Shown one piece after another: positions 12,720-45,114 of a stretch of 45,137 bases of DNA. How positions within the stretch are numbered: the stretch's first letter is position 1; the number at the start of each line of letters is the position of its first letter. Under the pieces are notes generated by a model. The model saw nothing but the letters and a program-made list of their open reading frames with translations, was not told where the DNA came from and searched no databases. This stretch comes from a virus, in IMG/VR virus record IMGVR_UViG_3300046804_003816, positions 1 through 45,137 of that record; one strand, 5' to 3'. The position numbers and the translations under genes are program-made.

Positions 12720-13677
12720 TTTTAAATTTAGGTATAATAATATCTGTTCCGCAGGTACAGTGATGTTTACCGCAAATTATTTCCTTAGGACCTACACCTG
12801 ATATGTCATCTAGTATATGCCCTATTCGTTCTCCTTGACCACAACTGGCCATACTAACATATCCTCTAGGATTTATAAAAATACTATCACCAATTTTACA
12901 ATTCCAACCTTCAAAGAAATTTTGTCCTTTAACTATTATATCATTGGATATAAGGGGAGATTTAGTTCCGTCGTCCCATATACCTATACTAACTGCACCG
13001 TTATATTTGTAAGGCTTGGGTTTAGTAAATTTTGTTTCAATATTATGTTCGTTAATAAATTTTACTTTTGCAGGATCTTTATAATGCCAAGGCCCTGCAT
13101 TAGTGCTGATTTCATCAAATAAAGGTGTCCATTCTATAAAATAATTAGGTAAATTTTCTTTGAGGTAATTCCCATACTCAACAACTTCCCAAAACCTTTC
13201 ATCGTGCATAAGCATTTTACTGCTCAAGTAATTAATTTTGTCGCACAAAAATAATGTATTTTGAAAATACTTTTCTTGATCAGCGAACTCAATATGGAAA
13301 CTAGCAACTACATCATCAAATAATTTATAATGTTTTTCCCACCAGCCCAACGGCCTGCTTAAATTGGTGTTAACTGCTAGTGTACAATCTGGAAGTCGTT
13401 CTCTTAGCCACTCGCATATAGGAATAAAATTACGCCATGCTGTTGGTTCTCCGCCGCTGAAAAAGAATTTAAAAGATTTATAACCAACTGATTTGTATTT
13501 TTCTACAATAAGTTCTAAATTTTTTAGGTAAATTTCTAAATTATCGTCGTTACGTTGTGTACCACTCCAGTTACCTTCGTTGCAATAGCTACATCTAAAA
13601 TTACAATAATTATTAACTTGCCAAGTAACAGCAAGGTAAGGTTGTTTTGGTTCAACAGCAATTAACTTTGAGACCAT
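12697..13677 (-). CDS. Radical SAM protein with C-terminal cysteine-rich (SPASM-like) region
   Basis: 326 residues. The [4Fe-4S]-SAM motif CxxxCxxC is C25-NFR-C29-SY-C32, followed by the SAM-binding FFSGGEPTAW. The C-terminal quarter has further cysteines (NCKIGDSIFINPRG, ASCGQGERIGH, CGKHHCTCG) that could hold an auxiliary Fe-S cluster, as in SPASM enzymes that modify peptides or sugars. The start is ATG 13677, because an in-frame ATG five codons upstream itself forms part of the GGGAGG ribosome-binding site. It overlaps the end of the preceding radical SAM gene by 16 nt. Confidence 0.87.
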   Translation of the reverse strand: MVSKLIAVEPKQPYLAVTWQVNNYCNFRCSYCNEGNWSGTQRNDDNLEIYLKNLELIVEKYKSVGYKSFKFFFSGGEPTAWRNFIPICEWLRERLPDCTLAVNTNLSRPLGWWEKHYKLFDDVVASFHIEFADQEKYFQNTLFLCDKINYLSSKMLMHDERFWEVVEYGNYLKENLPNYFIEWTPLFDEISTNAGPWHYKDPAKVKFINEHNIETKFTKPKPYKYNGAVSIGIWDDGTKSPLISNDIIVKGQNFFEGWNCKIGDSIFINPRGYVSMASCGQGERIGHILDDISGVGPKEIICGKHHCTCGTDIIIPKFKNAEIISN

Positions 13678-14915: not shown

Positions 14916-14916
14916 C

Positions 14917-16137: not shown

Positions 16138-17497
16138 TTTGTTCTCTACATAAATTATAAAAATTTGTAAGTTCTGGGAAAGTTTCTAATAAATTAACAT
16201 TCCTTCTTCGGTCGTACTCGTTAAACCAATTAAAGAAATCTTTTCGACCCTCATTCAGCTTATCTTTGTCGTAATGAGTTGTTTCCATGTAAGTAACAAC
16301 TCTTCTAAATTTTTCATATTCCAGCTCGTTAAAATGTTGCCCGGAGTCGTTATTCAAGTTTTCCTTAATAAACTCCAAAGAATCATACATATATGGCATG
16401 AATTCTTCTTTAGGAAGTATATTCATGTCGTATTGTAACGGTTCTTTTAAATGTGGTGTGTCAAACCTAATTCGATGCTTATTTAAGTGCTCATACCAAC
16501 CGTAATGTTGTCTCCATTCTAATAGTTTAGCAAGCAATGATTTAAAATTACTGACTGTTAAAATGTTAAATGTAATCATAAATGTAACAGGATACTTAGT
16601 TTTTGACAAATAAGTATGAAAGTTTCTTTCCCACACTTCTATGTCTAACCCTGTGCGAATATATTCTGCTTTAGTACCCCATGTATCTAAACTAGTAAAT
16701 AGTTTAAACGATTTAATTTTATTTTCTAATCTTAATTTTTCAACTTTTTCAGCCAAGCGTTCTACTAGTATTGATTTAACTCCAAGGTTACTGTTAAGGT
16801 TTAGTTCTAAATTAGGCAACGGATTAGAATCTAAGTCTTCTAAAAGCCTCCAAGTACTACGTTGTAGTAATGGTTCGCCGCCGGTAATTCGTAAAATGTT
16901 TAAAGTTTTTCTAACTTCTGGCCACCACTTCCACCATGCTTCTACATAAGGATTGTTTTCTTCTTCGTATGTAGTAAACCAGTTAATATCGTTGCGGTGA
17001 TGCTTAACCATAGTATACGGGCCGTGGTCTTTGATTTCTTTGTAATATGCCGAACTATGTTTTGGATGGCAGTATCCGCATTTAAAATTACACTCACTAC
17101 CAAAACTGATTTCAATATATTCAGGATTTATATTAAAATCCCAATTATTATCTTTTATTTCCTGTAAACGCTCGGGACGATATATGCCAGCATTTCGTTC
17201 ATGCCTATCGCTAATATAATCTTCGCCTAGTGCTTCAATATTCCAACAGTATTGACAGCCGTTGGGTTGGTCACCGTCTAACATGGCTGCACGTTGTAAT
17301 TTCTTTTCTTGAGTATTATGTAGTGCGCTTGGATTATCTTTTAATTCATTCAACGGAATTTTATGAGGCGGCGGATGATAGCAACTATGTGTTTCGCCTG
17401 TTTGCAAATATATTGTAGTATGATGCCACTTGGCTAAACAAAATGTTGGGCTTATTTCGTTAGTAATATTTTTAATTTGTATAATTCGATCTTTCAA
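16127..17497 (-). CDS. Twitch-domain radical SAM protein (divergent paralogue 3)
   Basis: 456 residues. Same order but more divergent: FCLAKWHHTTIYLQTGETHSCY (C20, C39), CQYC (C81, C84), core SECNFKCGYCHPKHSSA (C136, C140, C143), ITGGEPLL and FTSLDTWG. The family CC dipeptide is replaced by a single cysteine followed by Y-H-P-P-P-H, so the auxiliary cluster may be ligated differently. It starts at TTG 17497, whose TTGA overlaps the stop of the upstream gene; AAAGG lies upstream. Three such enzymes in a row is unusual even for accessory-rich phages. Confidence 0.85.
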   Translation of the reverse strand: MKDRIIQIKNITNEISPTFCLAKWHHTTIYLQTGETHSCYHPPPHKIPLNELKDNPSALHNTQEKKLQRAAMLDGDQPNGCQYCWNIEALGEDYISDRHERNAGIYRPERLQEIKDNNWDFNINPEYIEISFGSECNFKCGYCHPKHSSAYYKEIKDHGPYTMVKHHRNDINWFTTYEEENNPYVEAWWKWWPEVRKTLNILRITGGEPLLQRSTWRLLEDLDSNPLPNLELNLNSNLGVKSILVERLAEKVEKLRLENKIKSFKLFTSLDTWGTKAEYIRTGLDIEVWERNFHTYLSKTKYPVTFMITFNILTVSNFKSLLAKLLEWRQHYGWYEHLNKHRIRFDTPHLKEPLQYDMNILPKEEFMPYMYDSLEFIKENLNNDSGQHFNELEYEKFRRVVTYMETTHYDKDKLNEGRKDFFNWFNEYDRRRNVNLLETFPELTNFYNLCREQNAL

Positions 17498-18321
17498 TTT
17501 AATTTTAAACCTTTGAAAGTTGAATAGTGTTGCGGGATTCCGCTAATAACTTTACCTATTGGCATATATTGCCATGCAGTATTATAACGATGTGCTTCTG
17601 TAAGATAAGTCTTAAACTCTTCTGATTTTAGAATTTTATTTCGTTCTCCCCATGTGTCCCAGTAAAAGAAATTGTAATATGAGCTCCACTGGGCAGTAAT
17701 ATCCCACTGACGTGCGTCATCGTCGTCTATATAAGATTGGAAAAAGTCTTTACCACAGATAGCCCAATTCATGAATATATCATACTCGCAGTCATAGTCT
17801 AGGTATTTCCAGTCACCTACTTTGTGCTGAAAGTAATCTTGGGTAGTTAGACTACGCAATTTAAAAAATTGATATGTTACATTTTTAGATAGTTGCTTTG
17901 CTCGGGTGTCGTAGTAATTTTCTAAAAAATGAACAGCATCATTGATGGCTGCTGCCTTTTCGTAAAAAACAGGATAGTCTTCGTTGTTAACAACGGGCCC
18001 TGTGTTTAGATTCCAACAACAGAAAGAAGTGCCTGTAGTGAACCATCGATGTATAATGTTTAGCTCGTGTCTAGTAAATTCGTGGTCAGATGGTGCAGAA
18101 AAGGGAAATTTTACTTTATTATTGTCATTAAAATCTTCCAATGCAAATAATAACTGTTTTCGATACTTCTCTTTCTCATCATCATTAATATAAACGCAAT
18201 TTGGGACTGTCCAGCAGTCCCAAGGTTCCTGTGTTTTTAACTGTGATATCCATTCATTAACAAGTGGATTATCAATTAGTTTAATAACAACTGGTTCATT
18301 AAATTCTAAAATTAAGTCCAT
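17494..18321 (-). CDS. Unknown protein opening the radical SAM island
   Basis: 275 residues, rich in aromatics (many W, Y, F) and without signal peptide or recognised motif. Segments such as EPWDCWTVPNCVYINDD, RHELNIIHRWFTTG and QWSSYYNFFYWDTWGERN suggest a folded globular domain, possibly a binding partner or substrate carrier for the three radical SAM proteins it precedes. It is coupled to them by a 4-nt overlap (TTGA) downstream and to the gene upstream by 10 nt. No function can be assigned. Confidence 0.75.
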   Translation of the reverse strand: MDLILEFNEPVVIKLIDNPLVNEWISQLKTQEPWDCWTVPNCVYINDDEKEKYRKQLLFALEDFNDNNKVKFPFSAPSDHEFTRHELNIIHRWFTTGTSFCCWNLNTGPVVNNEDYPVFYEKAAAINDAVHFLENYYDTRAKQLSKNVTYQFFKLRSLTTQDYFQHKVGDWKYLDYDCEYDIFMNWAICGKDFFQSYIDDDDARQWDITAQWSSYYNFFYWDTWGERNKILKSEEFKTYLTEAHRYNTAWQYMPIGKVISGIPQHYSTFKGLKLN

Positions 18322-19151: not shown

Positions 19152-19909
19152 TATCTTTTCCAGTTAAAAGGACATTTACTCTTTTCTTGTTCTTGTTTAT
19201 CGATTATTTTCTTTTGTACTTTATATTTGTTTAAAAAGGACGAAGGAATTAATCTTTCTCGCATGTTGAAATATTCTTCATTACTTACCTTTTGTAAGTG
19301 GATTTTTAATTTTCTTTCCGAAACCGGTACAATATTAACTAATGGAGTGCCTTGCCTAATAAACAGTGGTTGTCCTGGATTGCTAAAATGCAAGAATAAG
19401 TTAATATCAGCGTTCGTGTTATACTTGTAACTTAGTGATGCTGGTGGAATAACTATTTCATGCGGGTTATGAAACGCCCAAGTGTTTCCAATCCAACTAA
19501 ACTGAACATTCTCTTTACAACTAATAAGCCATGGAGTGTGTAATTTTAAATGAATAAAATCTTTTTGATCAAGATATCCAGACATTTGTCTGAAATCGTG
19601 GCTCATTGCACCGCTTACTCCGTCACTGTACTGCCAGTTGAATGTTCCGCTTTGTCTATCAACTCCTACTAACAAATCGGACCACATCGGAATGGTCATT
19701 CCGTTTTTATAAAAATCTAAAAACCCCGCACAACTTTTCATAGTTGGAATCGGGGCCATGTTGCCTTCTTTGTTAAAACTTTTCGGAAGTGCTTTCCACC
19801 AATCCGGAAAAAATTTATGACTATAATCTATAGGATAAAGGTCATGCACATATTGTCTACTTGTGAAACAGTCTACGTGCAGGACCTTCTTTTTAAAGAA
19901 AAATAACAT
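19151..19909 (-). CDS. Conserved phage protein, function unknown
   Basis: 252 residues. It starts MLFFFKKKVLHVDCFTSRQYVHDLYPI and contains FFPDWWKALPKSF, CAGFLDFYKNG, WSDLLVG, PWLISCKENVQFSWIGNTWAFHN and a C-terminal RQGTPLVNIVPVSERKLKI. The run of strands ending in GTPLV-x-IVP resembles a jelly-roll or cupin-like fold, but I cannot prove it. It is conserved as a gene next to the tryptophan-rich protein in related phages as far as I recall. It overlaps both neighbours (TAATG). Confidence 0.75.
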   Translation of the reverse strand: MLFFFKKKVLHVDCFTSRQYVHDLYPIDYSHKFFPDWWKALPKSFNKEGNMAPIPTMKSCAGFLDFYKNGMTIPMWSDLLVGVDRQSGTFNWQYSDGVSGAMSHDFRQMSGYLDQKDFIHLKLHTPWLISCKENVQFSWIGNTWAFHNPHEIVIPPASLSYKYNTNADINLFLHFSNPGQPLFIRQGTPLVNIVPVSERKLKIHLQKVSNEEYFNMRERLIPSSFLNKYKVQKKIIDKQEQEKSKCPFNWKR

Positions 19910-20604
19910 TACTCTTTCTTATCACCAAAAAGTTGTAGTAGGTTCAAGAATAGATTAATAAAGTCCAAGTAAAGCGTCAAAGCACCGCGAATTTCTGCAA
20001 TGCCGTCGTTCTCCATACTGACTTCTTCTCTAATCTGCTGTGTATCGTAGGCAGTAAGTCCGAGAAAAATTAGGATAGCAATAGCACTAATAACCATTTG
20101 CATAACTGTACTACCAATAAAGATATTTACAATACTAGCAATGATGATAGCAATCAATCCGACAAACAACAAACTACCCAATCCACTAAGATCCTTTTTA
20201 GTAAAGTAACCGTAGCCACTCATAACACCAAACAGGATTGCACCTCCCATGAAGGCACTGACAATACTGCCCATGTTATAAATGACAAAAATTGTAGCAA
20301 AGCTCAAACCCATTAGTGCGGCAAATCCGTGTAGGCAAAGCTGAGCCATGCTCTTAGTAGGACTTGCATTAAGCAGGATTGTAACACCAAAAATAGCAAC
20401 TACTGGTGCAAAAATTACAATCCATTTCATAATTCCTGTAAAGAAGAATGCCATAAGACTGGCGCTTGTTCCTACAAGAAAACTCACAATCATACTGGTC
20501 AATACTGCTAGAGCCATATGTCCATAAACACGGCCCATTGCGCTGTTGATTTCGCTAGCAGAGCGATAGCTAACAGTATTATCCATGTAACTAGTTCCAA
20601 ACAT
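19909..20604 (-). CDS. Bax inhibitor-1 / YccA-family multi-pass membrane protein
   Basis: 231 residues with about seven hydrophobic segments from residue 28 onward. The family signature LTAYDTQQIREE lies near the C-terminus, and the N-terminal cytoplasmic tail MDNTVSYRSASEINSAMGRVYGHMALAV is typical of bacterial YbhL/YccA members. These proteins are transport or leak channels that protect cells; E. coli YccA restrains the FtsH protease. In a phage it could stabilise the inner membrane, delay lysis or inhibit a membrane protease. AAGGAG precedes ATG 20604. The stop overlaps the next gene. Confidence 0.9.
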   Translation of the reverse strand: MFGTSYMDNTVSYRSASEINSAMGRVYGHMALAVLTSMIVSFLVGTSASLMAFFFTGIMKWIVIFAPVVAIFGVTILLNASPTKSMAQLCLHGFAALMGLSFATIFVIYNMGSIVSAFMGGAILFGVMSGYGYFTKKDLSGLGSLLFVGLIAIIIASIVNIFIGSTVMQMVISAIAILIFLGLTAYDTQQIREEVSMENDGIAEIRGALTLYLDFINLFLNLLQLFGDKKE

Positions 20605-33749: not shown

Positions 33750-33775
33750 TTGCGCCTCTGTGTGTAGTTAAACGG

Positions 33776-33872
33776 TGTAGACGGTAGGATTCGAACCTAC
33801 AAAGCCACCACTATGGGCTAGGCCTGTGCCCTCCCCGAAGGGAGGAGGTCTACCAATTCCACTCACGTCTAC
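33776..33872 (-). tRNA. tRNA-like gene, leucine-type D arm, anomalous anticodon arm
   Basis: 97 nt on the minus strand. A 7-bp acceptor GTAGACG/CGTCTAC with discriminator A, a perfect T arm GTAGG-TTCGAAT-CCTAC, and a D arm containing GGAATTGGTAGAC, the hallmark of bacterial tRNA-Leu. The middle does not fold as a normal tRNA: the anticodon position is occupied by a very stable C/G stem closed by UUCG (or a 6-nt loop CTTCGG), with no standard 7-nt loop carrying U33. A long variable arm (AGGCC paired with GGCTT) follows. The next genome bases are CC then G, so CCA is not encoded. It may be a leucine tRNA with an insertion, a non-decoding tRNA-like RNA, or a sequencing artefact. Confidence 0.7.
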
Positions 33873-34410: not shown

Positions 34411-35898
34411 ATGGACGTTGTTTTATTAACTACTGTTTTACCCTATGAACATTATACTTGGCAACTTAAACCAGGTTTTGTAAACAACTTGTTTAGAGGT
34501 ATGGGATCTTATCAAATAGCATGGTATCTTAGAGAACACGGATATTCCGTCCAAGTAATTGATTTTATTAAGTATCTGACAACAAAACAAATTTTAGAAT
34601 TACTAGATAAATTTGTCACGCAGGAAACTAAAATTGTTGGGTTAGGGGTACTTGGGCTATTAGAACAAGATGCATGGTTATTTGTAAAGTTTCAAGATGT
34701 AATGTTTCGTGCTCGTAGAAAATATCCGTGGGTTACTATTGTTGGCGGTGGCCCAACTGCTAATCGTTTTGAAGACGAATTTTCAAAAGGAACATTTGAT
34801 TGGCTAATTGTTGGTCACGCAGAAGATAGTATGTTGTCGCTAACAAATCACATAATTAGATTAGATAAGGCTCCGATGTATGAACGGACTCCTAAAGGTG
34901 CTCGACTAATACGAGAATCGTTTAGTGTTCCTGTTGAAAAGAAATTTGACATACAACATTCTCAACATAGATGGCATGATAGAGACTGCATACAACAAGG
35001 CGAAGCTTTACCTTTAGAAACAACACGCGGCTGTATTTTTAAATGTAAATTCTGCCAATATCCTCTAATCGGTAAAAACAAAAGAGATTTTTTACGAAAC
35101 ATGTCGGAGATCAGGGACGAGTTGCTTGATAACTACGAGCGTTTTAAAACTGTAAATTATTACATACTAGACGACACTTTTAATGCCGACAAAGATCGTG
35201 TAGAAGAGTTTTGGCAAATGACTAAAACATTGCCTTTTAAAATAAGATATAGTACATATCTTAGATTAGACTTAATAGAAGCGCACCCGCAAACCGCAGC
35301 TATGTTACAAGAAAGCGGACTAGTAGGAGCATTTTTTGGAATAGAAACTTTTAACCCCGAAGCTGCTCTTATGGTTGGAAAGGCATTTAGCGGAAAAAAA
35401 GCTAAAGAATATTTGCCTAAACTTATGAAAGAGATATGGGGTAATAAAGTTTCTGTGTATTGTGGACTGATAGCAGGATTTCCACAAGAAACATATGAAG
35501 ACTTACAAGCAACTAATCAATGGATGCGAGATCAAGGAATTCATTGCTGGGGATGGAATCCTTTATTCATTAATAAGGTTCATAATTTTATTTCTGAATA
35601 TCAAAGTGAGTTTGATAGAAACGCAGAGTCTTATGGTTTTAGGTTTCTCGATGATTCAAATAATTGGGTAACAGACACAACCTCTTTTGTTGAAGCACAG
35701 CATTGGGCTAGAGAGTTACAAATAAATCCTACACAAAAACCAGCATCTTGGGCAATACCAGAATTTTTAAATTATCCTGCTGTAAATATGGATCTTATTT
35801 TAAACGAAAGTGCAGTTAATATTTTTGCAAAAACTAATATGCATCAGCAACGAGTAGCATGGCTACGTCAATATGTTGATATGCTTAAAAATCTTTAA
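34411..35898 (+). CDS. B12-binding-type radical SAM protein
   Basis: 495 residues. The N-terminal 150 residues have a Rossmann-type cobalamin-binding layout (VVLLTTVLPYEH, WVTIVGGGPTANRF, FDWLIVGHAEDS) without an obvious DxHxxG, so cobalamin may be lost. The radical SAM core starts LETTRGCIFKCKFCQYP with C208, C212, C215, continues with NYYILDDTFN and ends with KVSVYCGLIAGFPQE, typical of class B/MiaB-like cores. Such enzymes methylate or rearrange unactivated carbons. The only plus-strand gene of the right-hand island; it converges with the desaturase gene (1 nt between the two stops). Confidence 0.87.
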   Translation: MDVVLLTTVLPYEHYTWQLKPGFVNNLFRGMGSYQIAWYLREHGYSVQVIDFIKYLTTKQILELLDKFVTQETKIVGLGVLGLLEQDAWLFVKFQDVMFRARRKYPWVTIVGGGPTANRFEDEFSKGTFDWLIVGHAEDSMLSLTNHIIRLDKAPMYERTPKGARLIRESFSVPVEKKFDIQHSQHRWHDRDCIQQGEALPLETTRGCIFKCKFCQYPLIGKNKRDFLRNMSEIRDELLDNYERFKTVNYYILDDTFNADKDRVEEFWQMTKTLPFKIRYSTYLRLDLIEAHPQTAAMLQESGLVGAFFGIETFNPEAALMVGKAFSGKKAKEYLPKLMKEIWGNKVSVYCGLIAGFPQETYEDLQATNQWMRDQGIHCWGWNPLFINKVHNFISEYQSEFDRNAESYGFRFLDDSNNWVTDTTSFVEAQHWARELQINPTQKPASWAIPEFLNYPAVNMDLILNESAVNIFAKTNMHQQRVAWLRQYVDMLKNL

Positions 35899-35899
35899 A

Positions 35900-36688
35900 T
35901 TATTTTTTAATTAATTTTATAATCCAATATGTGGGATCAAGTTCCCACCAATGCCTATGTCCGTAGTTTGGGTTCTTAGCATCACCATGATGATTGTTAT
36001 GCCATGTTTCTCCTAGTATCAACGGAAATAACCATACAACATTCACAGCATCATTGTCTTGCTCGTAATTTTTATATCCATAAGTTTTAGAGTGATTCAT
36101 GCTAGTTTGTATACTGTAGCTATGTAAGGTAATAAATGCCGGTAATGCTAATGTATAAAGCCAAACTTCTAAATTGATTAACGCTATTACTGCATGGCTT
36201 ATCCATAATATTTTTTGATAATGGTTGTGTAAGAACATTACATCTTTATCCCGCATTAAATCTATACAAGACCTAGGATTCAAATCTCCCTCTTTTAGTT
36301 TAAACATCCATAAAATGTAACTATGAGCAAAACCGTCTTTAGGGCTATGGGGATCGCCTTCTTTATCGGTATATCTATGATGATAGCCTCTATGTACAGT
36401 TACCCAAAATATTGGACTGCCTTGGCCGGCTACCGCAGCTGACCATAGCATAAACAGCTTAACGGGTTTAGAAACTTCAAAGCCTTTATGACTCAAGTAT
36501 CTGTGATAGCAAGCACTTATACCTAACATCATTAAGCAAATATAACCAGCTATAGTAGCTACCCACCACCAACTTGGTGCGGATCCATCAATTACATTCC
36601 AGATGGCCCAGACACCTATGAACTGCATAGGAACAACGCTGCCCCAAAGGTTCGGTTGTTTAAAAGTATTTTTTATAATATCTATCAT
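35900..36688 (-). CDS. Fatty-acid (delta-9 type) desaturase, integral membrane
   Basis: 262 residues with several hydrophobic segments. The three histidine boxes of the di-iron acyl desaturases are present: H62-RYLS-H67, H99-RGY-H103-H104 (DPHSP follows), and HNNHH in GETWHNNHHGDAKNPNYG. The WELDPTYWIIKLIKK end is also typical of bacterial delta-9 desaturases. It inserts a double bond into acyl chains in the inner membrane, needing reductant from the host. In a phage it could alter membrane fluidity or, given its neighbours, desaturate an acyl part of a made compound. ATGA overlap with the PP-loop gene upstream. Confidence 0.9.
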   Translation of the reverse strand: MIDIIKNTFKQPNLWGSVVPMQFIGVWAIWNVIDGSAPSWWWVATIAGYICLMMLGISACYHRYLSHKGFEVSKPVKLFMLWSAAVAGQGSPIFWVTVHRGYHHRYTDKEGDPHSPKDGFAHSYILWMFKLKEGDLNPRSCIDLMRDKDVMFLHNHYQKILWISHAVIALINLEVWLYTLALPAFITLHSYSIQTSMNHSKTYGYKNYEQDNDAVNVVWLFPLILGETWHNNHHGDAKNPNYGHRHWWELDPTYWIIKLIKK

Positions 36689-37968
36689 AAAATAATATCC
36701 GTAGATATGTTAGTTATCTTGTCAAGTTCGTAGTTAATGGTTGTTATTGGTAAAAACTTGTCTATGCTTCCAAGATTATAATATCTACGCCAAACTCTTA
36801 ATCCTGTTGCTTGTCCTTCCGCATTAAATGTCCAGAATCGTTTGTCGATAGTTTTTTGTAAATTTTGTAAGTCCGACGACATCATCTGATAAACTTCTGT
36901 TCCTTGGTGATGTTTATAGAACCAGAAGTCGTGATTGCCTAACAGCATTTTGTCAGGTTTTTGTGCTTGGAAACTTTGTTTTTTTATTGCCGGGTAAATT
37001 GCTGGAACTATACCCCTTTCATAAATTCCAGGGTTGCCGCCGTTAAACCACTGTACAAACTTTGAGTGTTCTGGCTTATACCAATACTGCTCTTTCGATA
37101 CAAGGTTAGTATAGTTTTCGTAATTTAAAGGCATATAGTTATAGATATTTTTATTCTCAGGTCTCAGTATAAATCTTGCAGTAACATGGGCCTGTTTAAT
37201 AATCATCTGAGGTAACTGCGGTGCATGATAAAAGAATACAGGGTTTGTGTTAGGATGATTGATAGAATCATATTTGTTATTATACACACAATCTGCAAAA
37301 GTAATTGCCATATAGGACTTATAGCGTATTAGCTGAGGTTTATCAATGCCTTGGACAACTGCAATCTTTTTACCTGATTCTGCTATTCTTTTTAAATGAG
37401 TATATCTATCAAGATTATAACGACCAGCCATAGTAGGGTGTATCCAATCCGTTCCTTTAAGCAACCAGTCATCTTGTTTATAATTTAACATGTCTTCAAA
37501 ATAATCATGAAGTGTGACCTTGATATTAGGATGTTCTACTTGTATTTTCTTTAAGAACGGTATTTGTGTTATAAATGTTTCGTCGATGGTATTTCTAACA
37601 TCTGTATTTGTTGGATCAGGAGCATGCCAATCGCGGAGACCAGAGACTGGTGCGCTAGCAACTATTTCGTCCACACGGATACCGTTATTTAAAAATGCGT
37701 ATAGCATATTAGTACTATCGGCGCCACCACTGCAAAACAATAATACATAGTCGTATTCTGATCTTATTTGTTGAGCTCTTATTTTATAAAACTCGTCTAG
37801 ACTTGTCTCCGGCTCTTCAGACCAGTTAAATGCTTGGAATGAAGAATCATTAAAAATCCACTTAACATCTTCTGGCTGCAAGTTTAACTGCTGTGCTCTT
37901 AAGATAGCTAAAATTTTATTATGGAATTTTTCTTGCCCAACAAGGTAGTATCCTAGATCGTCTGTCAT
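36685..37968 (-). CDS. PP-loop ATPase (asparagine-synthetase/ExsB-like), first of three
   Basis: 427 residues. The ATP-pyrophosphatase loop SGGADS lies at residues 80-85 in YVLLFCSGGADSTNMLYAF, followed by a Rossmann-type core (VDEIVASAPVSG, KIAVVQGIDKPQLIRYKSY). No zinc CxxCxxC as in QueC, and no glutaminase domain as in true asparagine synthetase, so it probably adenylates a carboxyl or carbonyl group and receives nitrogen from elsewhere. ATGA overlaps link it to the desaturase and to the ATP-grasp gene. Product unknown. Confidence 0.83.
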   Translation of the reverse strand: MTDDLGYYLVGQEKFHNKILAILRAQQLNLQPEDVKWIFNDSSFQAFNWSEEPETSLDEFYKIRAQQIRSEYDYVLLFCSGGADSTNMLYAFLNNGIRVDEIVASAPVSGLRDWHAPDPTNTDVRNTIDETFITQIPFLKKIQVEHPNIKVTLHDYFEDMLNYKQDDWLLKGTDWIHPTMAGRYNLDRYTHLKRIAESGKKIAVVQGIDKPQLIRYKSYMAITFADCVYNNKYDSINHPNTNPVFFYHAPQLPQMIIKQAHVTARFILRPENKNIYNYMPLNYENYTNLVSKEQYWYKPEHSKFVQWFNGGNPGIYERGIVPAIYPAIKKQSFQAQKPDKMLLGNHDFWFYKHHQGTEVYQMMSSDLQNLQKTIDKRFWTFNAEGQATGLRVWRRYYNLGSIDKFLPITTINYELDKITNISTDIIL

Positions 37969-39236
37969 TTTAAAAGTCCTATATCTTTACGATAGTAATA
38001 ATCACCTAACTCTTGCTGAGATAGAAAATTGTAAATTCGAGAACTGCATTCTTCAATAGTGTTGCCAACAGTTAAAAAAGAGTATGGGTATATTCGATAT
38101 CCAAATTCACTAAGCATGCGATAATAAGAAATGCCCTCTGGGATATTTGTTATGTTTGGAAAATTACAATTTTTCCCCACAGTAGGCCAATTTTTATTAG
38201 TTAATCGTATACAAACAGATTTTTTATCTGAAAAAGTTATTTCGGGTAATGGATTGTTATTAGCAATATCTATCATTAGATCTAAAAGGTTGTTTTCAAT
38301 TAAAGATAGTATTGTAAGACCTTCGGGCTCTCCTAACCTAGTATTGACTTCTAACAACAATGGATTATTATCCTTATCAACAATTATACCTAAAAACATA
38401 AATCCTTTGTAAACAATGTTTTTTGATTTAAAATAGTTATGAATTTTTTCTGCATAAGTGTATGCCACATCATTGACATCTGTAACAGAATAACATCCTA
38501 CACCATCGGTCATACATCCTTTATCATCCTCATACATTTGTTTGTAATCTCTTGCTGAACCAATGTACTTAATACCAGTGCTATTGCAAATTACATGATA
38601 CGAATATTCTTTAGATCCTTCTACAAACTCTTCGATTATAAAGTTTAAATTATTATAATCTGTTTTATAAAGCATATTAAGTATGGATTTAAAACCGTTG
38701 CCGTCTGTAAATCTTTTTAACTCCTCTTCCCAATTATCATCTGTAACAATAATTGTCTGCATACCTACTCTGTAATCTTGGTCGTATTTTAAGACAAATG
38801 GACGTTTAAAGGTCGGAAACTTTTCTATCAATTCACTGCCCTTGACAATTATATGGTCAGGCGTCGGGATACCTAATTCTTTAAACACACGTTTAGAGTA
38901 TACTTTTGACCATTCTAAAAATCCAATTTCTCGTTCGGGACAAATATACGGAACACCTCTGAGAGCTAGCTCGTCGTGAAACGAACGTGATAGCTGATAC
39001 CCTAACTGATTTGTAACAATTAGATCTAGTCCAGGAATTCTTATACTATCAGATAGCATTTTTTCTCGATCATCTTTTGCTATACTAGTAGTCGAAATGG
39101 GTGTATATCGATCAGTAGGAGTACTTACTGCTGGATGTGCATCGCAATGATACACATGACTTACTCGTGGGTCATTTAAGAATTTTTCTATAAAATAGTC
39201 ACTGTTTGATGTGTTCGACGCAACTAGTATTTTCAC
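37965..39236 (-). CDS. ATP-grasp ligase related to PurD (GAR synthetase)
   Basis: 423 residues, the length of PurD. Start GTG 39236, whose GTGA overlaps the upstream stop; MKILVASNTSNSDYFIEKFLNDPRVSHVY matches the PurD N-terminal fold. ATP-grasp blocks: FVLKYDQDYRVGMQTIIVTDD, FVEGSKEYSYHVICN, GSARDYKQMYEDDKG followed by TDGVGCYS (PurD: AQDHKR...DxGPNTGGMGAYS) and LLEVNTRLGEPEGLT (PurD ExNVRFGDPE). The PurD TGG is replaced by TDG, so the substrate may differ from phosphoribosylamine plus glycine. It forms an amide-type bond at the cost of ATP. A cluster of PP-loop and GNAT genes surrounds it. Confidence 0.87.
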   Translation of the reverse strand: MKILVASNTSNSDYFIEKFLNDPRVSHVYHCDAHPAVSTPTDRYTPISTTSIAKDDREKMLSDSIRIPGLDLIVTNQLGYQLSRSFHDELALRGVPYICPEREIGFLEWSKVYSKRVFKELGIPTPDHIIVKGSELIEKFPTFKRPFVLKYDQDYRVGMQTIIVTDDNWEEELKRFTDGNGFKSILNMLYKTDYNNLNFIIEEFVEGSKEYSYHVICNSTGIKYIGSARDYKQMYEDDKGCMTDGVGCYSVTDVNDVAYTYAEKIHNYFKSKNIVYKGFMFLGIIVDKDNNPLLLEVNTRLGEPEGLTILSLIENNLLDLMIDIANNNPLPEITFSDKKSVCIRLTNKNWPTVGKNCNFPNITNIPEGISYYRMLSEFGYRIYPYSFLTVGNTIEECSSRIYNFLSQQELGDYYYRKDIGLLK

Positions 39237-39781
39237 CGTCTTTTCCAATTCTCTAATATCTGTTGATTACCAGAATATATTATTTTCTGCCAGCATGTAT
39301 TGTCGCATTCGTTAGGGCAAGTTAGATACTTGTAATTATCTGTTTGGAATGTTACGCCGTAAACTTTTTTAAAATTACGTATGACCCATTCTTCCCAGTT
39401 GTCTGTTTGCCTGCTTATAAAATATAATTTGCAGTCAGTGTTATCCTTTAACCACAATATTTGACTCTTAGCACTTTCTGCAAAGCTAGGACTCATCACT
39501 CTAGGAAAAGGAATTTTATTACTGTGTTTCCACAAACGATTTAATATACGATATGCTCCACTCGGCCAGCAGTCTCTACTAGAAATACTACTGCACATTT
39601 CGGGAATACCATTATCGTCAAAGCAAATAGTGTATGCGATTATGCCTGCATAATCAAATGCGTTTTTGCTATAGTTTTCCCACAACCTATGAGATTGATC
39701 TTGATACTGTTGTTCTCGCAATTGATCAAATAATTGATCGAGGTATTCATTAGTGTTCGGTGCCCATGTTACTGTTTGCAT
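39233..39781 (-). CDS. Small protein of accessory island, acetyltransferase-like
   Basis: 182 residues. NEYLDQLFDQLREQQYQDQSHRLWENYSKNAFDYAGIIAYTICFDDNGIPEMCSSI has the order of an N-terminal GNAT-like helix followed by strands, and RDCWPSGAYRILNRLWKHS could take the place of the acetyl-CoA loop, but the consensus Q/RxxGxG/A is absent. Cysteines near the C-terminus (TCPNECDNTC) may bind metal. I recognise the type from aquatic phage genomes, unannotated. Coupled to the ATP-grasp gene by a 4-nt overlap and to the PP-loop gene by 13 nt. Confidence 0.68.
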   Translation of the reverse strand: MQTVTWAPNTNEYLDQLFDQLREQQYQDQSHRLWENYSKNAFDYAGIIAYTICFDDNGIPEMCSSISSRDCWPSGAYRILNRLWKHSNKIPFPRVMSPSFAESAKSQILWLKDNTDCKLYFISRQTDNWEEWVIRNFKKVYGVTFQTDNYKYLTCPNECDNTCWQKIIYSGNQQILENWKRR

Positions 39782-40641
39782 AGTAACCTTTCAACTAAGG
39801 GGTGGTAATCTTCATAGTAGATTCCTCCCCATTGTTTTTCTAGTTCAGAAAAAATTTTTAAATTTTCATGTTGAAATATATCACTTTTTTCTATGTTTTC
39901 ATAACCTGTGTATTTTGTTCTTTGTAGCATATTAAAGTCAGTTCCATTGTTATACACAAAAATTTTACTAGTGTTATTTCCTAGTTTACCTGGATGTTGA
40001 TTGTTGGCTAGTTCAAACATTCGCGGCTCTAGTAGGAACGACAAGAACTGCTCTGCTGTATAATTTAAAATAAAAGGACAACCATCAAGACTATATTTTT
40101 TAAAATAGGTTAATATAGAGTGAACTAGCTCGTGTTCAACTAACTGCCAAATATCATCTCTGGGTTTCAAGTACGGCGGCGCATCTCCAAGTACAACGAA
40201 TCCGTCAATCATACTTGATGCGTACATAGTAGCAGGAATCTGATAGCCGCCGCATTTGATAGATTGTGCTATGTCTAATATTTTTCCACTTTTTACAAAC
40301 TCGTCAAAATCTATGTCGATGACTATCGGCTTAATATTTTTACTTTCACAAAAATCAAACGCATATTTTAAATCGTGCTGATTATAGTTACTTAACTTTA
40401 TAATTACAGGAGTAAAATCAAAACCTAATTTTAGAAATACGTTGAAGACATATTCGCTATCTAAACCGCCGCTATACAATAGGTGTAGTCTTCCTGTCTT
40501 GTTTGCATATATGTATTCTGCAACTTCTAGAGTTTCTTCAAAGTAAGACTTTATTTTTTTGTTAGGCGGTTGTATGTTAACTTTCCACGACGGCCCATTG
40601 CCCGAGCTAGTCATGTAGTTGTCTTTAACCAACTCTATCAT
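39769..40641 (-). CDS. PP-loop ATPase, second of three
   Basis: 290 residues; SGGLDS at residues 57-62 in GRLHLLYSGGLDSEYVFNVFLKLG, with the following strand FTPVIIKLSNYNQHDLKYAFDFCESKNIKPIVIDIDFDEFV typical of the family. It is shorter than the other two and has only the ATPase half. The ATGA overlap with the GNAT gene upstream suggests a product pair: PP-loop activation plus acetyl transfer. It could act on a sugar or amino acid, as in N-acetyl-sugar amidotransferase-like enzymes; this is inference. Confidence 0.83.
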   Translation of the reverse strand: MIELVKDNYMTSSGNGPSWKVNIQPPNKKIKSYFEETLEVAEYIYANKTGRLHLLYSGGLDSEYVFNVFLKLGFDFTPVIIKLSNYNQHDLKYAFDFCESKNIKPIVIDIDFDEFVKSGKILDIAQSIKCGGYQIPATMYASSMIDGFVVLGDAPPYLKPRDDIWQLVEHELVHSILTYFKKYSLDGCPFILNYTAEQFLSFLLEPRMFELANNQHPGKLGNNTSKIFVYNNGTDFNMLQRTKYTGYENIEKSDIFQHENLKIFSELEKQWGGIYYEDYHPLVERLLCKQ

Positions 40642-41102
40642 TTAAGTTTTTTACCCATGTAATGGAAAACTTGCCCCATACCAACTTTTTCAGCAGACGC
40701 TAGACGCACTTTATTATTTTTGTGTACATGGCTACTTATTGCCCAGCAACCTTTTTCTTTAGCTACTTGTTCAAAATAAGGATGCATCATTGTGTATATT
40801 CCACGACCTCTAGAATCTTCGTCTACTGCACTAAGAACAATCCATAATGTTCCGCTTGTTTTAACAAATTCAGTACTATAAACTATGTGTCCTAAAATTT
40901 TATCATTGCTATCTACAGCATATACTCCACCACAGTTTCCGTCCTCCCAAGACGTAAACGGATATCCAAAACCGTTATCGATTAGATTAGCAATTTGTCT
41001 TAGAAAGAATGTGTAGAACGGACTCATAGCCAAAGTAGTTGAGTTGAAGATTCGAATTTCATTACCAAGTTTATCAGTTTCAGTTCCCATTAATGTAATC
41101 AT
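40638..41102 (-). CDS. GNAT-family acetyltransferase
   Basis: 154 residues. Acetyl-CoA loop R-G-R-G-I-Y in SAVDEDSRGRGIYTMMHPYFEQVAKEKGCWAISSHVHKNN, preceded by KILGHIVYSTEFVKTSGTLWIVLSAV and followed by the N-x-x-x-x-x-x-x-x-x-x-G motif KVRLASAEKVGMGQVFHYMGKKL. Transfers acetyl (or acyl) to an amine. The start has GGAGG and an exact TATAAATA late promoter. It is the first gene of the PP-loop/ATP-grasp/desaturase transcription unit, which runs from 41102 down to 35900. Confidence 0.87.
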   Translation of the reverse strand: MITLMGTETDKLGNEIRIFNSTTLAMSPFYTFFLRQIANLIDNGFGYPFTSWEDGNCGGVYAVDSNDKILGHIVYSTEFVKTSGTLWIVLSAVDEDSRGRGIYTMMHPYFEQVAKEKGCWAISSHVHKNNKVRLASAEKVGMGQVFHYMGKKLK

Positions 41103-41116
41103 AATTACCTCCGAGA

Positions 41117-41124
41117 TATTTATA
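41117..41124 (-). promoter_or_regulatory. Consensus late promoter TATAAATA
   Basis: Minus-strand exact TATAAATA (41124-41117), 14 bp before ATG 41102, leaving room for GGAGG in the short leader. It lies just after the intrinsic terminator of the DctP gene and drives the accessory unit below. Confidence 0.82.
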
Positions 41125-41141
41125 GAGCATAATGTATAGCC

Positions 41142-41167
41142 AAAAAAAAAGGCTCCGAAGAGCCTTT
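41142..41167 (-). terminator. Intrinsic terminator (UUCG tetraloop)
   Basis: On the minus strand AAAGGCTC - TTCG - GAGCCTTT followed by a run of T: a textbook rho-independent terminator, 16 nt after the DctP-like stop. Confidence 0.93.
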
Positions 41168-41183
41168 AAAGGTCAACTACAAA

Positions 41184-42128
41184 TTAATGTAGTTTAATCT
41201 TTTGTACCAACCCTGGTGTGAAGAAGTTTTCGAATTTCTCATAAACTACTTTTGTAGCTTCGGCAAAGCGAGACTGTTCTTCCTGACTCATCTTAACAAC
41301 TTCAATACCATCGGCTTCTGCGCGAGCTTGTACTAGAGCAATGTCTTCAATACTTAGTGTACGCTCATGACGAGCAGCAACTTTAGCACTTTCAGAAACA
41401 ACTGTTTGTAGATCTGGGCTTAGGCTGTTCCAGAAGTCTGTACCAATTAGAATAGTTGTTAGGAACAAGCTGTGTTCTGTGTGGTTAATGACTTTAGAAA
41501 CTTTATCATGTCCTAGTGCGTAAACACGAGGATATGTGCTTTCGCCAACTGTTACGTTAGCAGAACCTAAGTTCTCTGAAAGTTCTTCTAGTTCCATTGG
41601 AACTACATCAGCACCTAGTGTCTTGAATGTTTCAATAGCAACTGGGCTGAAACTTGTACGCATTTTCATACCGCGTAGATCTTCAATCTTAGCAACAGTT
41701 TCGTTACCAGGAATGATACGGAACCCACCGCTGTATGTAAATGCTAGGCCTTTAACTTTCTTAGAATTTTCTAAGCTGCTTAAAAGCTCAGCACCAACTT
41801 CACCTTCAAATACGCGACTAGCGTGGTCGTGGTCCTTAAACAAGAACGGTAGATCTAAAGCAAAGAAATCTTTATTGATCTTACCTAGTGTAATTGTGTA
41901 AGTTTGGCTCATTTGAATGTCGCCTGCATCTAGCAAATCTACTAGATCATGCTTACCAACTACAACACCGTTGTTATACTTTTCAGCATATTCGCTCATA
42001 GTCATAACTTCGATTTCTAGTTGTTCAGGAGCACGAGCATTTACTTCGTCTGCAAATACTTTTGCAGCACGGATAAACAACTCGATTGGCTCATGGGCTA
42101 GAACCCATTTTACTTGACGTTTTGTCAT
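41184..42128 (-). CDS. DctP-like TRAP substrate-binding protein without signal peptide
   Basis: 314 residues from ATG 42128 (MTKRQVKWVLAHEP), with GGAG 7 nt upstream; the ATG 12 nt earlier overlaps this ribosome-binding site. TRAP-type DctP features: FALDLPFLFKDHDHASRVF, LEDLRGMKMR-type IEDLRGMKMRTSFSPVAIETFKTLGADVVPM, and LTTILIGTDFWNSLSPDLQTVV. Normally DctP is periplasmic and brings carboxylates (or taurine and other substrates) to a DctQM permease. Here the mature domain begins within about 6 residues, there is no signal peptide and no permease gene, so the protein would stay in the cytoplasm. It has its own late promoter and terminator: a single-gene unit. Confidence 0.88.
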   Translation of the reverse strand: MTKRQVKWVLAHEPIELFIRAAKVFADEVNARAPEQLEIEVMTMSEYAEKYNNGVVVGKHDLVDLLDAGDIQMSQTYTITLGKINKDFFALDLPFLFKDHDHASRVFEGEVGAELLSSLENSKKVKGLAFTYSGGFRIIPGNETVAKIEDLRGMKMRTSFSPVAIETFKTLGADVVPMELEELSENLGSANVTVGESTYPRVYALGHDKVSKVINHTEHSLFLTTILIGTDFWNSLSPDLQTVVSESAKVAARHERTLSIEDIALVQARAEADGIEVVKMSQEEQSRFAEATKVVYEKFENFFTPGLVQKIKLH

Positions 42129-42152
42129 ATGTTTCTCCATTTAACGTTAAAT

Positions 42153-42176
42153 TAAGCAGGTCATGACTCCTGCTTA
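42153..42176 (-). other. 5' hairpin of the DctP transcript
   Basis: TAAGCAGG/CCTGCTTA inverted repeat around a TCATGA centre. It lies immediately after the predicted late +1 (about 42172), so the mRNA would begin with a hairpin, which could protect it from 5'-end-dependent decay. Confidence 0.5.
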
Positions 42177-42177
42177 G

Positions 42178-42185
42178 TATTTATG
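42178..42185 (-). promoter_or_regulatory. Late-type promoter CATAAATA for DctP-like gene
   Basis: Minus-strand CATAAATA (42185-42178), one base from consensus, about 50 bp ahead of ATG 42128. Confidence 0.65.
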
Positions 42186-42205
42186 TCTTTTGGATTTAGC
42201 TGTAG

Positions 42206-43105
42206 TTATCTGGTACTTTTTTGGCTATCTTCTATCTGTTTACGATACTTAGCTTGCAGTCTTTTAACTTGATCTACAGATTTCGTGTAAAATTCCTCAG
42301 TACTAACACCGTCAAATTGTGGCGGACGCATAGCAGACAATTTAAATATCTCTGCTTCCCCTACTTTATTTGTAGCATTGGTTAATATGATTCCTATGGC
42401 TTTGCGCCGGCCTTCAGGCATTTGTCGTTGTGCAACGGCTATATTAAAAATGTAAGGAGCATCAATGCCCATTTCTTTTAGAGTTTTAATCTTAGGTTCT
42501 TGAGGTAATCTAGCAGGACAGCTGGCAGCAACCATTTGCATCTTTAGGTTTTTGGTTTTTAATGATTCGTAACCTTCGTACTTGTCGATTACGAACTCAA
42601 CTCCGTTATTGCCCACCATATTAACTAGGGCATCATTGTTGCTTCTAAACACAATGTATCTAACATCAAACTTGTGTTTTTCTCCAAGGGCAAGGGCTGT
42701 TAGGTGTGCGGCATTACCAAACCCAACACCGCCTACGACAAATTCTTTTTGCCCTGTTAACGGTTTGTTTGTAACTACTGCCCAGCAAGCATCTCCAAAA
42801 GCATATACTGGAGTATAATCATTTTCTTGTAATCTGCCAGCTGCTAAATTTTCAACATATGCTGGAGCAATAATAGCAATACTGTTTTCATCTAAGCTCT
42901 TAACTGCAATAACTTGATTACCACCAGGCTTAAATTCTACCACAAATTTATAGATAGACTGCATAGCGTTAGCTTCGTCTACGACTTTGAATAGTGCAGG
43001 TGTTGCACTATGTCCAGGGCTATAAGGACTATAAATTTTAATTGTTTCTGTGGCATTAGTAATGCCTGCAAAACATAGTAAAATACTAACCAAAAAGTTT
43101 TTCAC
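42206..43105 (-). CDS. TctC/Bug-family periplasmic solute-binding protein
   Basis: 299 residues from GTG 43105, with GGAG 5 nt upstream; the in-frame TTG upstream would read through that site. Signal peptide MKNFLVSILLCFAGITNA then TETIKIYSPYSPGHSATP. Bug/TctC features: KPGGNQVIAVKSL, VGGVGFGNAAHLTALALG, a DVRYIVFRSNNDALVNMVGNNGVEF strand-helix, and TLKEMGIDAPYIFNIAVAQRQMPEGRRKAI. These proteins bind organic acids or amides for tripartite tricarboxylate transporters and are very abundant in Betaproteobacteria. No TctAB permease is present, so it would capture solute for a host transporter or act in sensing. Confidence 0.85.
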   Translation of the reverse strand: MKNFLVSILLCFAGITNATETIKIYSPYSPGHSATPALFKVVDEANAMQSIYKFVVEFKPGGNQVIAVKSLDENSIAIIAPAYVENLAAGRLQENDYTPVYAFGDACWAVVTNKPLTGQKEFVVGGVGFGNAAHLTALALGEKHKFDVRYIVFRSNNDALVNMVGNNGVEFVIDKYEGYESLKTKNLKMQMVAASCPARLPQEPKIKTLKEMGIDAPYIFNIAVAQRQMPEGRRKAIGIILTNATNKVGEAEIFKLSAMRPPQFDGVSTEEFYTKSVDQVKRLQAKYRKQIEDSQKSTR

Positions 43106-43106
43106 T

Positions 43107-44354
43107 TTATCTCCAATCAATTTTAAATTTTGTTAAGTTTTCTTTATAAAAGTTTTGCACACTAGGATCATCAATGTACATTACTTCATAGTTTTTAGTT
43201 AGTCCAATACGAGAAACTGGTCTTAGAGATTTTGGAATATTGCTTACATCCTGCCTGTGCCCTATTACCCACAATGACTCTAATTTAACTTTAAAGTTTT
43301 TATACCAGTCATTACGATCAAATTCCCAGATATAATCTTTAGCGGCTGTTTTATAACTTGCCGGCGTTGATTTAATTTTTAAACCATTGTTATTGTTTAC
43401 CATACTCCAACGTTGGTAGTCCGGGTAACTAAACCAATTGACAATTTTACGCATTACTGTTTCAACTTCCATGGTGTCATTAATATAAATGCTACCTCTA
43501 ACTGCACAGTTAAGATATTTGATATTAAAAATCATCCACCAGAAAAAATCATGTAGACTATTAACTGGTACTGTGGCAGTATCGATATTTCTAACTAGTT
43601 TTTCGTAAAGTAACTTTCCAAAATCAGGATCTGCTTGCACACTTAGATAACTTATTAACAAATCTTTATACCTACTATAATGTATTTCAGGATCTGAAAT
43701 CTTGTACTTAATGTTTGATAGTTCTACTCTAGACTCGTTACTTAATGTACCGGCCCATGCATCGTAGTTATTATAAAGAACTAATCCAAATAATGTTCCA
43801 AAAATACAATCGCCCTCATCAGCAGTTATAGGCGTATAACCTTGAGAAATAATATCGTCGTACTTGTTCTTGTCGCTGTCAATTATATCAAATTTGTCCT
43901 GGACATAGCTATTCCAAAAATGTGGGTTTTCTATTATAGTCTCGACGCTGGCACAAACTACTACACTTTTTAATTCTTCCACAGTTAAGTTTTTTATCAG
44001 GGCAGACATGACAACTGTGCTATCAATGCCTCCGGAAAACATCACAGCAAAACGTTCTCCTTGATTTATTCTTTGCTTTATCAACAAGGCTTGTTCATCT
44101 GAAATTTCTTCAAATGTCTTATTGAATGTCGGATTATAAACTGGCATTTCGTATCCAGGAATCAGATCCTGTTTCCAAGGTAATGACCATTCACCGTTTC
44201 TGCTTATGAACCGACAAGGGTTGACTCTTCGCGCCATATTAATGTAAAACTTTCCGCCGTCATCACATTCTGGATACATTGTATTCCAAAAATTATCATG
44301 GTAAAAGTTAAAACTTACATTTGAAAAGTAAATGGTATCATCTGGCCGGATCAT
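43107..44354 (-). CDS. PP-loop ATPase (asparagine-synthetase-like), third of three
   Basis: 415 residues. SGGIDS at 107-112 in RFAVMFSGGIDSTVVMSALIKNL; an N-terminal 70-residue domain (IYFSNVSFNFYHDNFWNT) precedes it, but without the N-terminal cysteine of a glutaminase. The C-terminal region contains RGSIYINDTMEVETVM and KSLRPVSRIGLTKNYEV, comparable to the C-terminal half of asparagine synthetase-like proteins used in natural-product amide formation. It follows the unknown gene at 44356 after 1 nt and precedes the Bug-type gene (stop at 43107, GTG 43105). Confidence 0.83.
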   Translation of the reverse strand: MIRPDDTIYFSNVSFNFYHDNFWNTMYPECDDGGKFYINMARRVNPCRFISRNGEWSLPWKQDLIPGYEMPVYNPTFNKTFEEISDEQALLIKQRINQGERFAVMFSGGIDSTVVMSALIKNLTVEELKSVVVCASVETIIENPHFWNSYVQDKFDIIDSDKNKYDDIISQGYTPITADEGDCIFGTLFGLVLYNNYDAWAGTLSNESRVELSNIKYKISDPEIHYSRYKDLLISYLSVQADPDFGKLLYEKLVRNIDTATVPVNSLHDFFWWMIFNIKYLNCAVRGSIYINDTMEVETVMRKIVNWFSYPDYQRWSMVNNNNGLKIKSTPASYKTAAKDYIWEFDRNDWYKNFKVKLESLWVIGHRQDVSNIPKSLRPVSRIGLTKNYEVMYIDDPSVQNFYKENLTKFKIDWR

Positions 44355-44355
44355 A

Positions 44356-45114
44356 TTAAAATAGCATTGTTGAAATATTTGTAAAGTTTATGCGTGTTAA
44401 CGGAATAAGAATCTCAGGTACAGGTTTATTTAAAATTTTATAGTAACCTTCCATTAGATAAACTTGATCGGTATAATTATTTTTCCAAAATTCAACAATT
44501 TTTTCCTCTGCTTCTTCTACACTATTTGAAAAGTATAAAATTTTTCTTAATTCAAAAAAGATACCTTTTTTAAGTTGAGATCTGTCTACCCTTGACGAAA
44601 CCTTCTCAGTCCACGAATCATCTAAGTATCTTTCTGCAAATCTGTTTGTATTTTCAAAATTGTAAAATGCATCTGTAATGTTTATAACATACACTTGCTG
44701 TTTAACAAAGTTAGCATACTCTGTTAACTTTGTTAGGATGCTGGTATTGTTTTTATAATCTTCCGGAATGCCCATTTCTATTATTTCATCTTTATCGTAT
44801 AAAAACTTGAGTAACGGGTGTTGTCTTCCTCCTACTAAAGGGCTAGGACCTACACGTTGTAATCTTTTATCCTGTATTGTATAATTGATACAATTATCAC
44901 TAGTAATATGTTTGGCGCTGGGCGGCATCATATATGCCACAGTAGGCAATTTAGAACTAAGGATCTCTGCTGTTTCAAAAGTCATCCAAAAGTCCATATC
45001 ATCGATTAATATAAATCGATCAAGACCCGGCGCAAAAATTCCGTGCCTGCGGTTATCTCCTTGAGAATTTACATAGAAGTGTTTGTAAAAATTATCATAT
45101 CGTTCTTGGATCAT
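44356..45114 (-). CDS. Unknown protein at the right edge of the island
   Basis: 252 residues. It includes FILIDDMDFWMTFETAEILSSKLPTVAYMMPPSAKHITSD, which reads like a nucleotide-binding or glycosyltransferase-like Rossmann segment, and QVYVINITDAFYNFENTNRFAERYLDD with a C-terminal amphipathic YYKILNKPVPEILIPLTRINF. No family recognised. It is immediately upstream of and coupled to a PP-loop ATPase gene, so it may be its partner, for example a substrate-binding or methyl/glycosyl-transfer subunit. That is inference. Confidence 0.7.
   Translation of the reverse strand: MIQERYDNFYKHFYVNSQGDNRRHGIFAPGLDRFILIDDMDFWMTFETAEILSSKLPTVAYMMPPSAKHITSDNCINYTIQDKRLQRVGPSPLVGGRQHPLLKFLYDKDEIIEMGIPEDYKNNTSILTKLTEYANFVKQQVYVINITDAFYNFENTNRFAERYLDDSWTEKVSSRVDRSQLKKGIFFELRKILYFSNSVEEAEEKIVEFWKNNYTDQVYLMEGYYKILNKPVPEILIPLTRINFTNISTMLF

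Follow-up and report, generated by a model that had tools for sequence, protein, structure and literature searches.

Bacterial alkyne and polyyne clusters (jamABC; cepacin, caryoynencin, protegencin) combine membrane desaturases with an acyl carrier protein (ACP), the polyyne cluster consisting of a fatty acyl-AMP ligase, an ACP and three desaturases together with a thioesterase and a rubredoxin (PMC8406139). Phages with acyl-carrier or desaturase genes are also known: roseobacter prophages carry fabG-acpP-fabF (PMC8224337), viral desaturases have been described (PMC7300359), and in the Pelagibacter phage Mosig EXVC030M (MT647606) a desaturase is found among oxygenases, a GNAT, an aminotransferase and radical SAM-type genes. 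Here we examine an island of genes for a desaturase, PP-loop ATPases, a PurD-like ATP-grasp ligase and GNAT-fold proteins in the IMG/VR virus record IMGVR_UViG_3300046804_003816, all 45,137 bp of which were analysed (hereafter the window; a complete record, possibly a piece of a larger genome). We put at about even the chances that this island is a late accessory module, a reduced member of a widespread family of phage clusters for acyl amides (lipids or natural products), and its most likely product would be an unsaturated fatty-acyl amide.

Membrane desaturases with an ACP, in tandem in the related loci L302 and L015, are what the phage family shares with the alkyne and polyyne clusters; the window, however, has a single desaturase, no ACP, fatty acyl-AMP ligase, thioesterase or rubredoxin was found in it, and its phage relatives add AcpS, ketoacyl-ACP synthase (KAS), FabZ, GNAT-fold and PP-loop genes. 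The PP-loop, PurD-like and u182 partners described below are not reported in PMC8224337 or PMC7300359, whereas here they form linked cassettes in many viral records. The desaturase of Mosig is 28% identical, and neither u182 nor the PP-loop proteins PP290 and PP427 had a tblastn match in 50,697 isolate-phage records; a DNA-level search of isolate phages with the window gave zero matches. Phage desaturases, phage acpP-fabF and bacterial sets of desaturase and ACP are thus already known, and it is their combination with new GNAT-fold and PP-loop families and PurD-like ligases on phages of which we found no published description in the open-access literature (subscription papers and preprints lay outside the scope of that search).

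The core of the island is formed by six minus-strand genes (41102-35900) and the signals that precede them:

41148..41167, minus strand: terminator-like hairpin after the DctP gene, which it parts from the operon, the promoter element lying just beyond
41117..41124, minus strand: TATAAATA late-promoter element, about 15 nt ahead of the start of the GNAT gene, a copy being kept in the related locus L006
40638..41102, minus strand: GNAT acetyltransferase-family gene, first of the late operon (PF00583, 3.6e-9)
39769..40641, minus strand: PP290, a 290-aa PP-loop ATPase of a phage-specific family (PP-loop SGGLDS, in the context SGGLDSE)
39233..39781, minus strand: u182, a 182-aa diverged GNAT-fold protein, recognised by its predicted fold, its linkage to the desaturase and its conservation
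37965..39248, minus strand: PurD-like ATP-grasp ligase, a full-length PurD homologue (TIGR00877)
36685..37968, minus strand: PP427, of a second PP-loop family (PP-loop SGGADS), to which an ATP-grasp gene is usually adjacent
35900..36688, minus strand: DesC/SCD-like acyl desaturase (PF00487, 3.6e-14; His boxes HRYLSH, HRGYHH and HNNHH)

Neighbouring genes overlap by 4, 13, 16, 4 and 4 nt. The octamer TATAAATA is not over-abundant in the window (3 copies seen, 6.4 expected); across 16 related records, 16 of its 30 copies lie 10-30 nt upstream of start codons, a zone that makes up about 2% of positions, and this placement beats that of every permutation of the octamer's letters. Because the octamer clusters upstream of starts and the copy before the GNAT gene is conserved in L006, the six genes are likely to form a T4-type late operon. 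This agrees with the first-pass annotation of the window, made from its letters alone, which had proposed one late transcript from 41102 to 35900 behind a consensus element and whose ten open reading frames, with the families it named, were confirmed in place. Matches in PHROGs include tail-fibre and baseplate-connector families, a phage DNA ligase and a ClpP-like head-maturation protease. The window comes from a virus of aquatic bacteria and, to judge from its baseplate and fibre families and its late promoter, from a T4-like one; the label rests on these features because Gp23 (PF07068), tried as a T4 marker, was above cut-off in one record only.

Recurrence of the same genes in other phages carries much of the argument. 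Independent scans by PP290 and by the desaturase gave 50 and 52 deduplicated loci, respectively. In 29 of the 32 desaturases of the island clade, u182 lies directly upstream on the same strand, and 26 of the 29 strong PP290 loci hold a desaturase; u182 was present in 18 IMG/VR loci of a first scan, all of whose u182-bearing virus records had a PP290-type match, weaker relatives included. Around PP290, desaturases reach 6.8 per 100 kb (0.8 in control loci), PP427 genes 3.0 (0.4), Rieske oxygenases 2.6 (0) and TctC genes 2.3 (0.2), the controls being 50 loci picked by an unrelated RNA on other phage contigs, so that the figures speak of enrichment and not of cause. Since u182, the desaturase and PP290 recur together in aquatic phages, we conclude from this comparison that the island did not come together by chance. 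The desaturase itself matches acyl-CoA desaturase structures at 3e-24, and its three His boxes are kept in all 54 sequences of the clade that were checked.

A second line of evidence comes from relatives that encode parts of a fatty-acid synthase. Among 39 records with core genes, ACP was found in 16, AcpS in 10, KAS in 9 and FabZ in 7, all above Pfam cut-offs, and all four occur in seven records (G038, G063, G066, G067, G071, G081 and G083), where the core genes lie amid a small type-II fatty-acid synthase that the phage itself encodes (AcpS, KAS, FabZ and two ACPs). In G038 the order is ACP, desaturase, u182, AcpS, Rieske, PP290, FabZ, ACP and KAS, within about 6 kb, and in five loci (L175, L187, L267, L269 and L272) an ACP gene stands 14-25 nt from the u182-linked desaturase. 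Locus L302 holds 11 desaturase matches, mostly in tandem, with an ACP (PF00550, 3e-11), an AcpS (PF01648, 2.8e-14) and a KAS (PF00109, 2e-20), and also encodes a RimK-type ATP-grasp protein, PP290 and a Rieske protein. Carrier-bound acyl chemistry in the island's family is thereby well supported. The natural-product or lipid-type pathway of the first-pass annotation gains support from this comparison, as the toolkit recurs in aquatic phages and relatives join it to AcpS, ACP, KAS and FabZ; the membership it gave to a radical SAM gene did not hold, as described below.

Tandem arrays with 6-11 desaturase matches per locus were seen at L302:1683-16635, at L178:6551-20396 (with a KAS) and in L177. 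Genes resembling S-adenosylmethionine (SAM) decarboxylase and Rieske genes adjoin PP-loop paralogues in L001, L007, L011 and L015 (the L001 gene, at 14184-14558, belongs to the SAM decarboxylase family by PF02675, 3.6e-16); the decarboxylase-like genes hint at a polyamine building block.

The protein u182, whose fold the first-pass annotation had missed, is predicted to be a second, highly diverged GNAT-fold protein. Its AlphaFold2 model (pLDDT, the predicted local confidence score, 92) matches many GNATs with a Foldseek probability of 1.0, with TM-scores of only about 0.5, and its best PDB matches include NcdE, an acyltransferase linked to a nonribosomal peptide synthetase, and aminoglycoside acetyltransferases. 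R22, R78, R82 and Q165 are invariant in an alignment of 32 members whose identity falls to about 20%; the canonical acyl-CoA loop motif (Q/R-x-x-G-x-G/A) is not evident in this alignment, and the acyltransferase role is a predicted one. Sequence searches of Pfam, PHROGs and the PDB, the last also run with the 32 diverse members, gave no significant, consistent match, and a Pfam scan of all members gave nothing consistent. In a collection of 84,980 species, each represented by a single genome, u182 matched a single 3.5-kb contig of an actinomycete metagenome-assembled genome, probably a stray phage contig.

The island's three PP-loop proteins, PP290, PP427 and PP415 (the last encoded outside the six-gene operon), all keep the SGGxDS motif; a HUP-type fold was tested for PP290 only. 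A QueC-type zinc-binding cysteine motif near the C-terminus is absent from all three, the Pfam QueC score was 14.6 bits (cut-off 22), and QueC-like genes were not enriched at PP290 loci over the 50 control loci. Nor is there an AsnB-type Cys2, residue 2 being I, T and I, or any match to a glutaminase domain, so that the earlier statement that these proteins have neither the zinc site of QueC nor a glutaminase cysteine stands for all three. The predicted structure of PP290 (pLDDT 92.5) shares the PP-loop and HUP core fold with the C-domains of class-B asparagine synthetase and beta-lactam synthetase and with LarE, TtuA and NadE, and its structure matches include TtuA, TilS and LarE. It differs from these synthetases and PP-loop enzymes in having no glutaminase domain and in N- and C-terminal parts that are unmatched in solved structures; its full-length matches are uncharacterised phage proteins only. 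A PDB profile search with PP427 gave nothing meaningful. One large phage PP-loop family has as many as seven copies per locus.

The ATP-grasp protein shares full-length homology and the conserved E.NTR.G[DE]PE motif with PurD (GAR synthetase), PDB PurD structures matching over its full length (E 2e-42 by profile). Against TIGR00877 it covers profile positions 2-421 of 425 and scores 135.5 bits, about half the equivalog cut-off of 288, and both its Gly-rich ATP loop and its TGGMG loop are altered. The TDG noted at first in place of TGG is indeed there (MTDGVG); the loop, though, is variable within the family (NSVSMG, NTVGLG, NTAGVG), and the loss of the Gly-rich ADGLAAGKG-type loop is the larger departure from PurD. 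With this score and the missing QueC and AsnB features, the initial view that these are not housekeeping PurD, QueC or AsnB enzymes is supported.

From these parts a possible pathway can be drawn. A fatty-acyl chain would be held on a carrier, the ACP in the fuller relatives and probably host acyl-ACP or acyl-CoA in the window phage; the chain, made or borrowed, would be desaturated by the DesC-like enzyme, and u182 would then pass it on to an amine. The PP-loop proteins may activate carboxylates as acyl-AMP, and together with the PurD-like ligase and the second GNAT they could build or extend an amide head group. We infer the use by u182 of the desaturase's carrier-bound chain, as well as the amide chemistry, the substrates, the product and the role in infection. 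Several observations weigh against this acyl-amide pathway. ACP, AcpS, KAS and FabZ are absent from the window and from its nearest relatives, G005, G001 and G002, and host carriers must therefore be assumed for all four; u182 occurs in only 15 of the 29 strong PP290 loci; u182 and the desaturase are split in the window by the ATP-grasp and PP427 genes; and the solved relatives of PP290 cover its core alone, its reaction being suggested by the PP-loop superfamily.

Comparison with close relatives shows how the island is kept. The whole window is collinear with G005, a 110-kb record (locus L006), except for a small rearrangement within the island. The order in L006 is PP-loop paralogue, AMP ligase, SDR, BKACE, partner gene, PP415, TctC, DctP, GNAT, SGNH protein, PP290, u182, desaturase, ATP-grasp, PP427 and, on the other strand, radical SAM; unlike L006, the window has ATP-grasp and PP427 between u182 and the desaturase. 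ATP-grasp-PP427 and u182-desaturase behave as two cassettes. Synteny in other phages, which the first-pass annotation had put forward as a check, is thus found in L006 (the same set in near-identical order), and L001 and L002 hold most of the set. Most backbone proteins of the window share 80-99% identity with those of G005, and DctP (94%) and TctC (90%) resemble the backbone in their synonymous divergence (pS 0.39 and 0.50); in the remaining island genes identity is down to 36-76%, and synonymous sites are almost saturated (pS 0.68-0.87). The gene set is retained although its sequences are very different, which is most simply read as replacement by diverged alleles, or alternatively as rapid divergence.

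Elsewhere in the same comparison, a second, milder divergence zone (pS about 0.75-0.87) at 11087-18321 on the minus strand, near the fibre genes, contains two SGNH-like or unknown proteins and four radical-SAM-type genes in a row. A hydrophobic 231-aa protein, Bax-inhibitor-1-like by eye (19909-20604, minus strand), is 99% identical to its G005 counterpart, with a pS of only 0.15, low for this pair. Beside the island at L006:1144-4087 stand genes for an AMP-binding ligase, an SDR and a BKACE (beta-keto acid cleavage enzyme); the window stops just short of them.

The operon is flanked by five further genes:

34411..35898, plus strand: B12-binding/radical SAM gene (CxxxCxxC), adjoining the island here and in L006
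41184..42140, minus strand: DctP-type (TRAP) solute-binding protein (PF03480, 1.1e-50)
42206..43120, minus strand: TctC-like solute-binding protein (PF03401, 4.5e-4) with a signal-peptide-like N-terminus; a related family occurs in 11 loci
43107..44354, minus strand: PP415, of a third PP-loop family (PP-loop SGGIDS), with weak similarity to Asn-synthase and LarE
44356..45114, minus strand: 252-aa partner of PP415, which also adjoins it in L006 and L002

The DctP and TctC-like genes lie inside the island and had been missed at first. No periplasmic export signal was recognised by eye in DctP, whose reading frame starts MEKHMTKRQVKWVLAHEP, and the same holds in L001 and L002; the protein is 84-94% identical between phages with a dN/dS of about 0.08-0.15, and so reads as a strongly constrained solute-binding fold that stays in the cytoplasm. 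The B12 radical SAM gene, originally counted among the pathway genes, lies on the opposite strand and is no denser near PP290 loci than in control loci (1.38 and 1.43 per 100 kb), and is probably a neighbour of the pathway.

Four other explanations were weighed. That these are auxiliary genes for membrane lipids and nutrients, with the desaturase tuning host membrane fluidity, DctP/TctC and the CoA ligase, SDR and BKACE of L006 feeding host carbon metabolism, and the PP-loop and ATP-grasp proteins serving separate tasks, we hold to be unlikely: a membrane-fluidity role has been proposed for phage desaturases (PMC7300359), L006 does carry the AMP-binding ligase, SDR and BKACE, and TctC-like genes are enriched near PP290, but the u182-desaturase pairing, the phage ACPs, the arrays of up to 11 tandem desaturases and those of PP-loop genes are left unexplained, and DctP lacks a signal peptide. 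Modification of tail fibres or capsid late in infection, which would suit the late promoter, the tailoring-enzyme island beside the tail fibres in which the Mosig desaturase lies, and a divergence far above that of the backbone, as in surface-determining loci, appears quite improbable, as the window's fibre genes are about 25 kb distant and a membrane desaturase with ACP is atypical of protein modification. We seriously doubt that the genes are an unlinked mosaic brought together merely through an insertion hot spot; gene content does vary between relatives, the two cassettes are separate and radical SAM genes are not enriched, yet the linkage of u182 to the desaturase in nearly all of its clade, the several-fold enrichment of the same families around PP290 and the overlapping genes behind one promoter speak against it. 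Least probable by our estimate is a role in RNA or nucleotide modification, with TilS-, TtuA- or QueC-like PP-loop proteins acting on tRNA or a tRNA-like RNA: the structural matches of PP290 to TtuA, TilS and LarE, and a tRNA-like RNA that comes after the desaturase in L001 and L011, are in its favour, but among 31 RNA-bearing contigs longer than 40 kb u182 occurs in 2 and PP290 in 8, and neither a desaturase nor an ACP fits. A defence system was dropped from consideration, as PADLOC gave one weak radical SAM match only.

The tRNA-like structured RNA just mentioned (96-117 nt) lies at the edge of the island, at 33773-33872 on the minus strand of the window, with homologues at L006:15901-15999, L001:17653-17752, L002:10755-10850 and L011:11344-11440 and in loci L055-L134. 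It has an acceptor stem with a CCA-type end, D-arm- and T-arm-like parts and a long second hairpin, while the position of the anticodon arm is taken by a hypervariable hairpin, in the window with a C(UUCG)G tetraloop and no 7-nt loop. Of its 27 pairs, 22 change on both sides among 64 distinct sequences, a covariation that none of 500 shuffles reached, in an alignment that was fitted to the model and favours it. A search by exact pattern hit at least 119 viral contigs, and in Rfam only the general tRNA model matches it (30.4 bits, cut-off 29). A role as donor for u182 or as part of the module was appealing, given the place of the RNA behind the desaturase in L001 and L011, and was rejected because the RNA is widespread without u182.

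The usual view of metabolic genes in phages is that they were borrowed from the host and supplement its metabolism. The enzymes of the island, several of which have clear relatives only among phages as far as the searched collections show, recur as linked cassettes that in the fuller clusters come with an acyl carrier and chain-building enzymes of their own. We suggest tentatively, at rather less than even chances, that lytic aquatic phages may possess a dedicated, modular secondary-metabolite pathway with its own ACP, KAS, FabZ and AcpS, desaturases, a novel GNAT-fold off-loading enzyme and new PP-loop ligases, the acyl amides from which would take effect late in infection, perhaps as signals, as agents acting on membranes or by inhibiting competitors. 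The island offers testable enzymes, in a GNAT-fold family that sequence searches miss and in a large phage PP-loop family. If the acyl-amide reading is true, lytic phages would make specialised lipids or natural products of their own.

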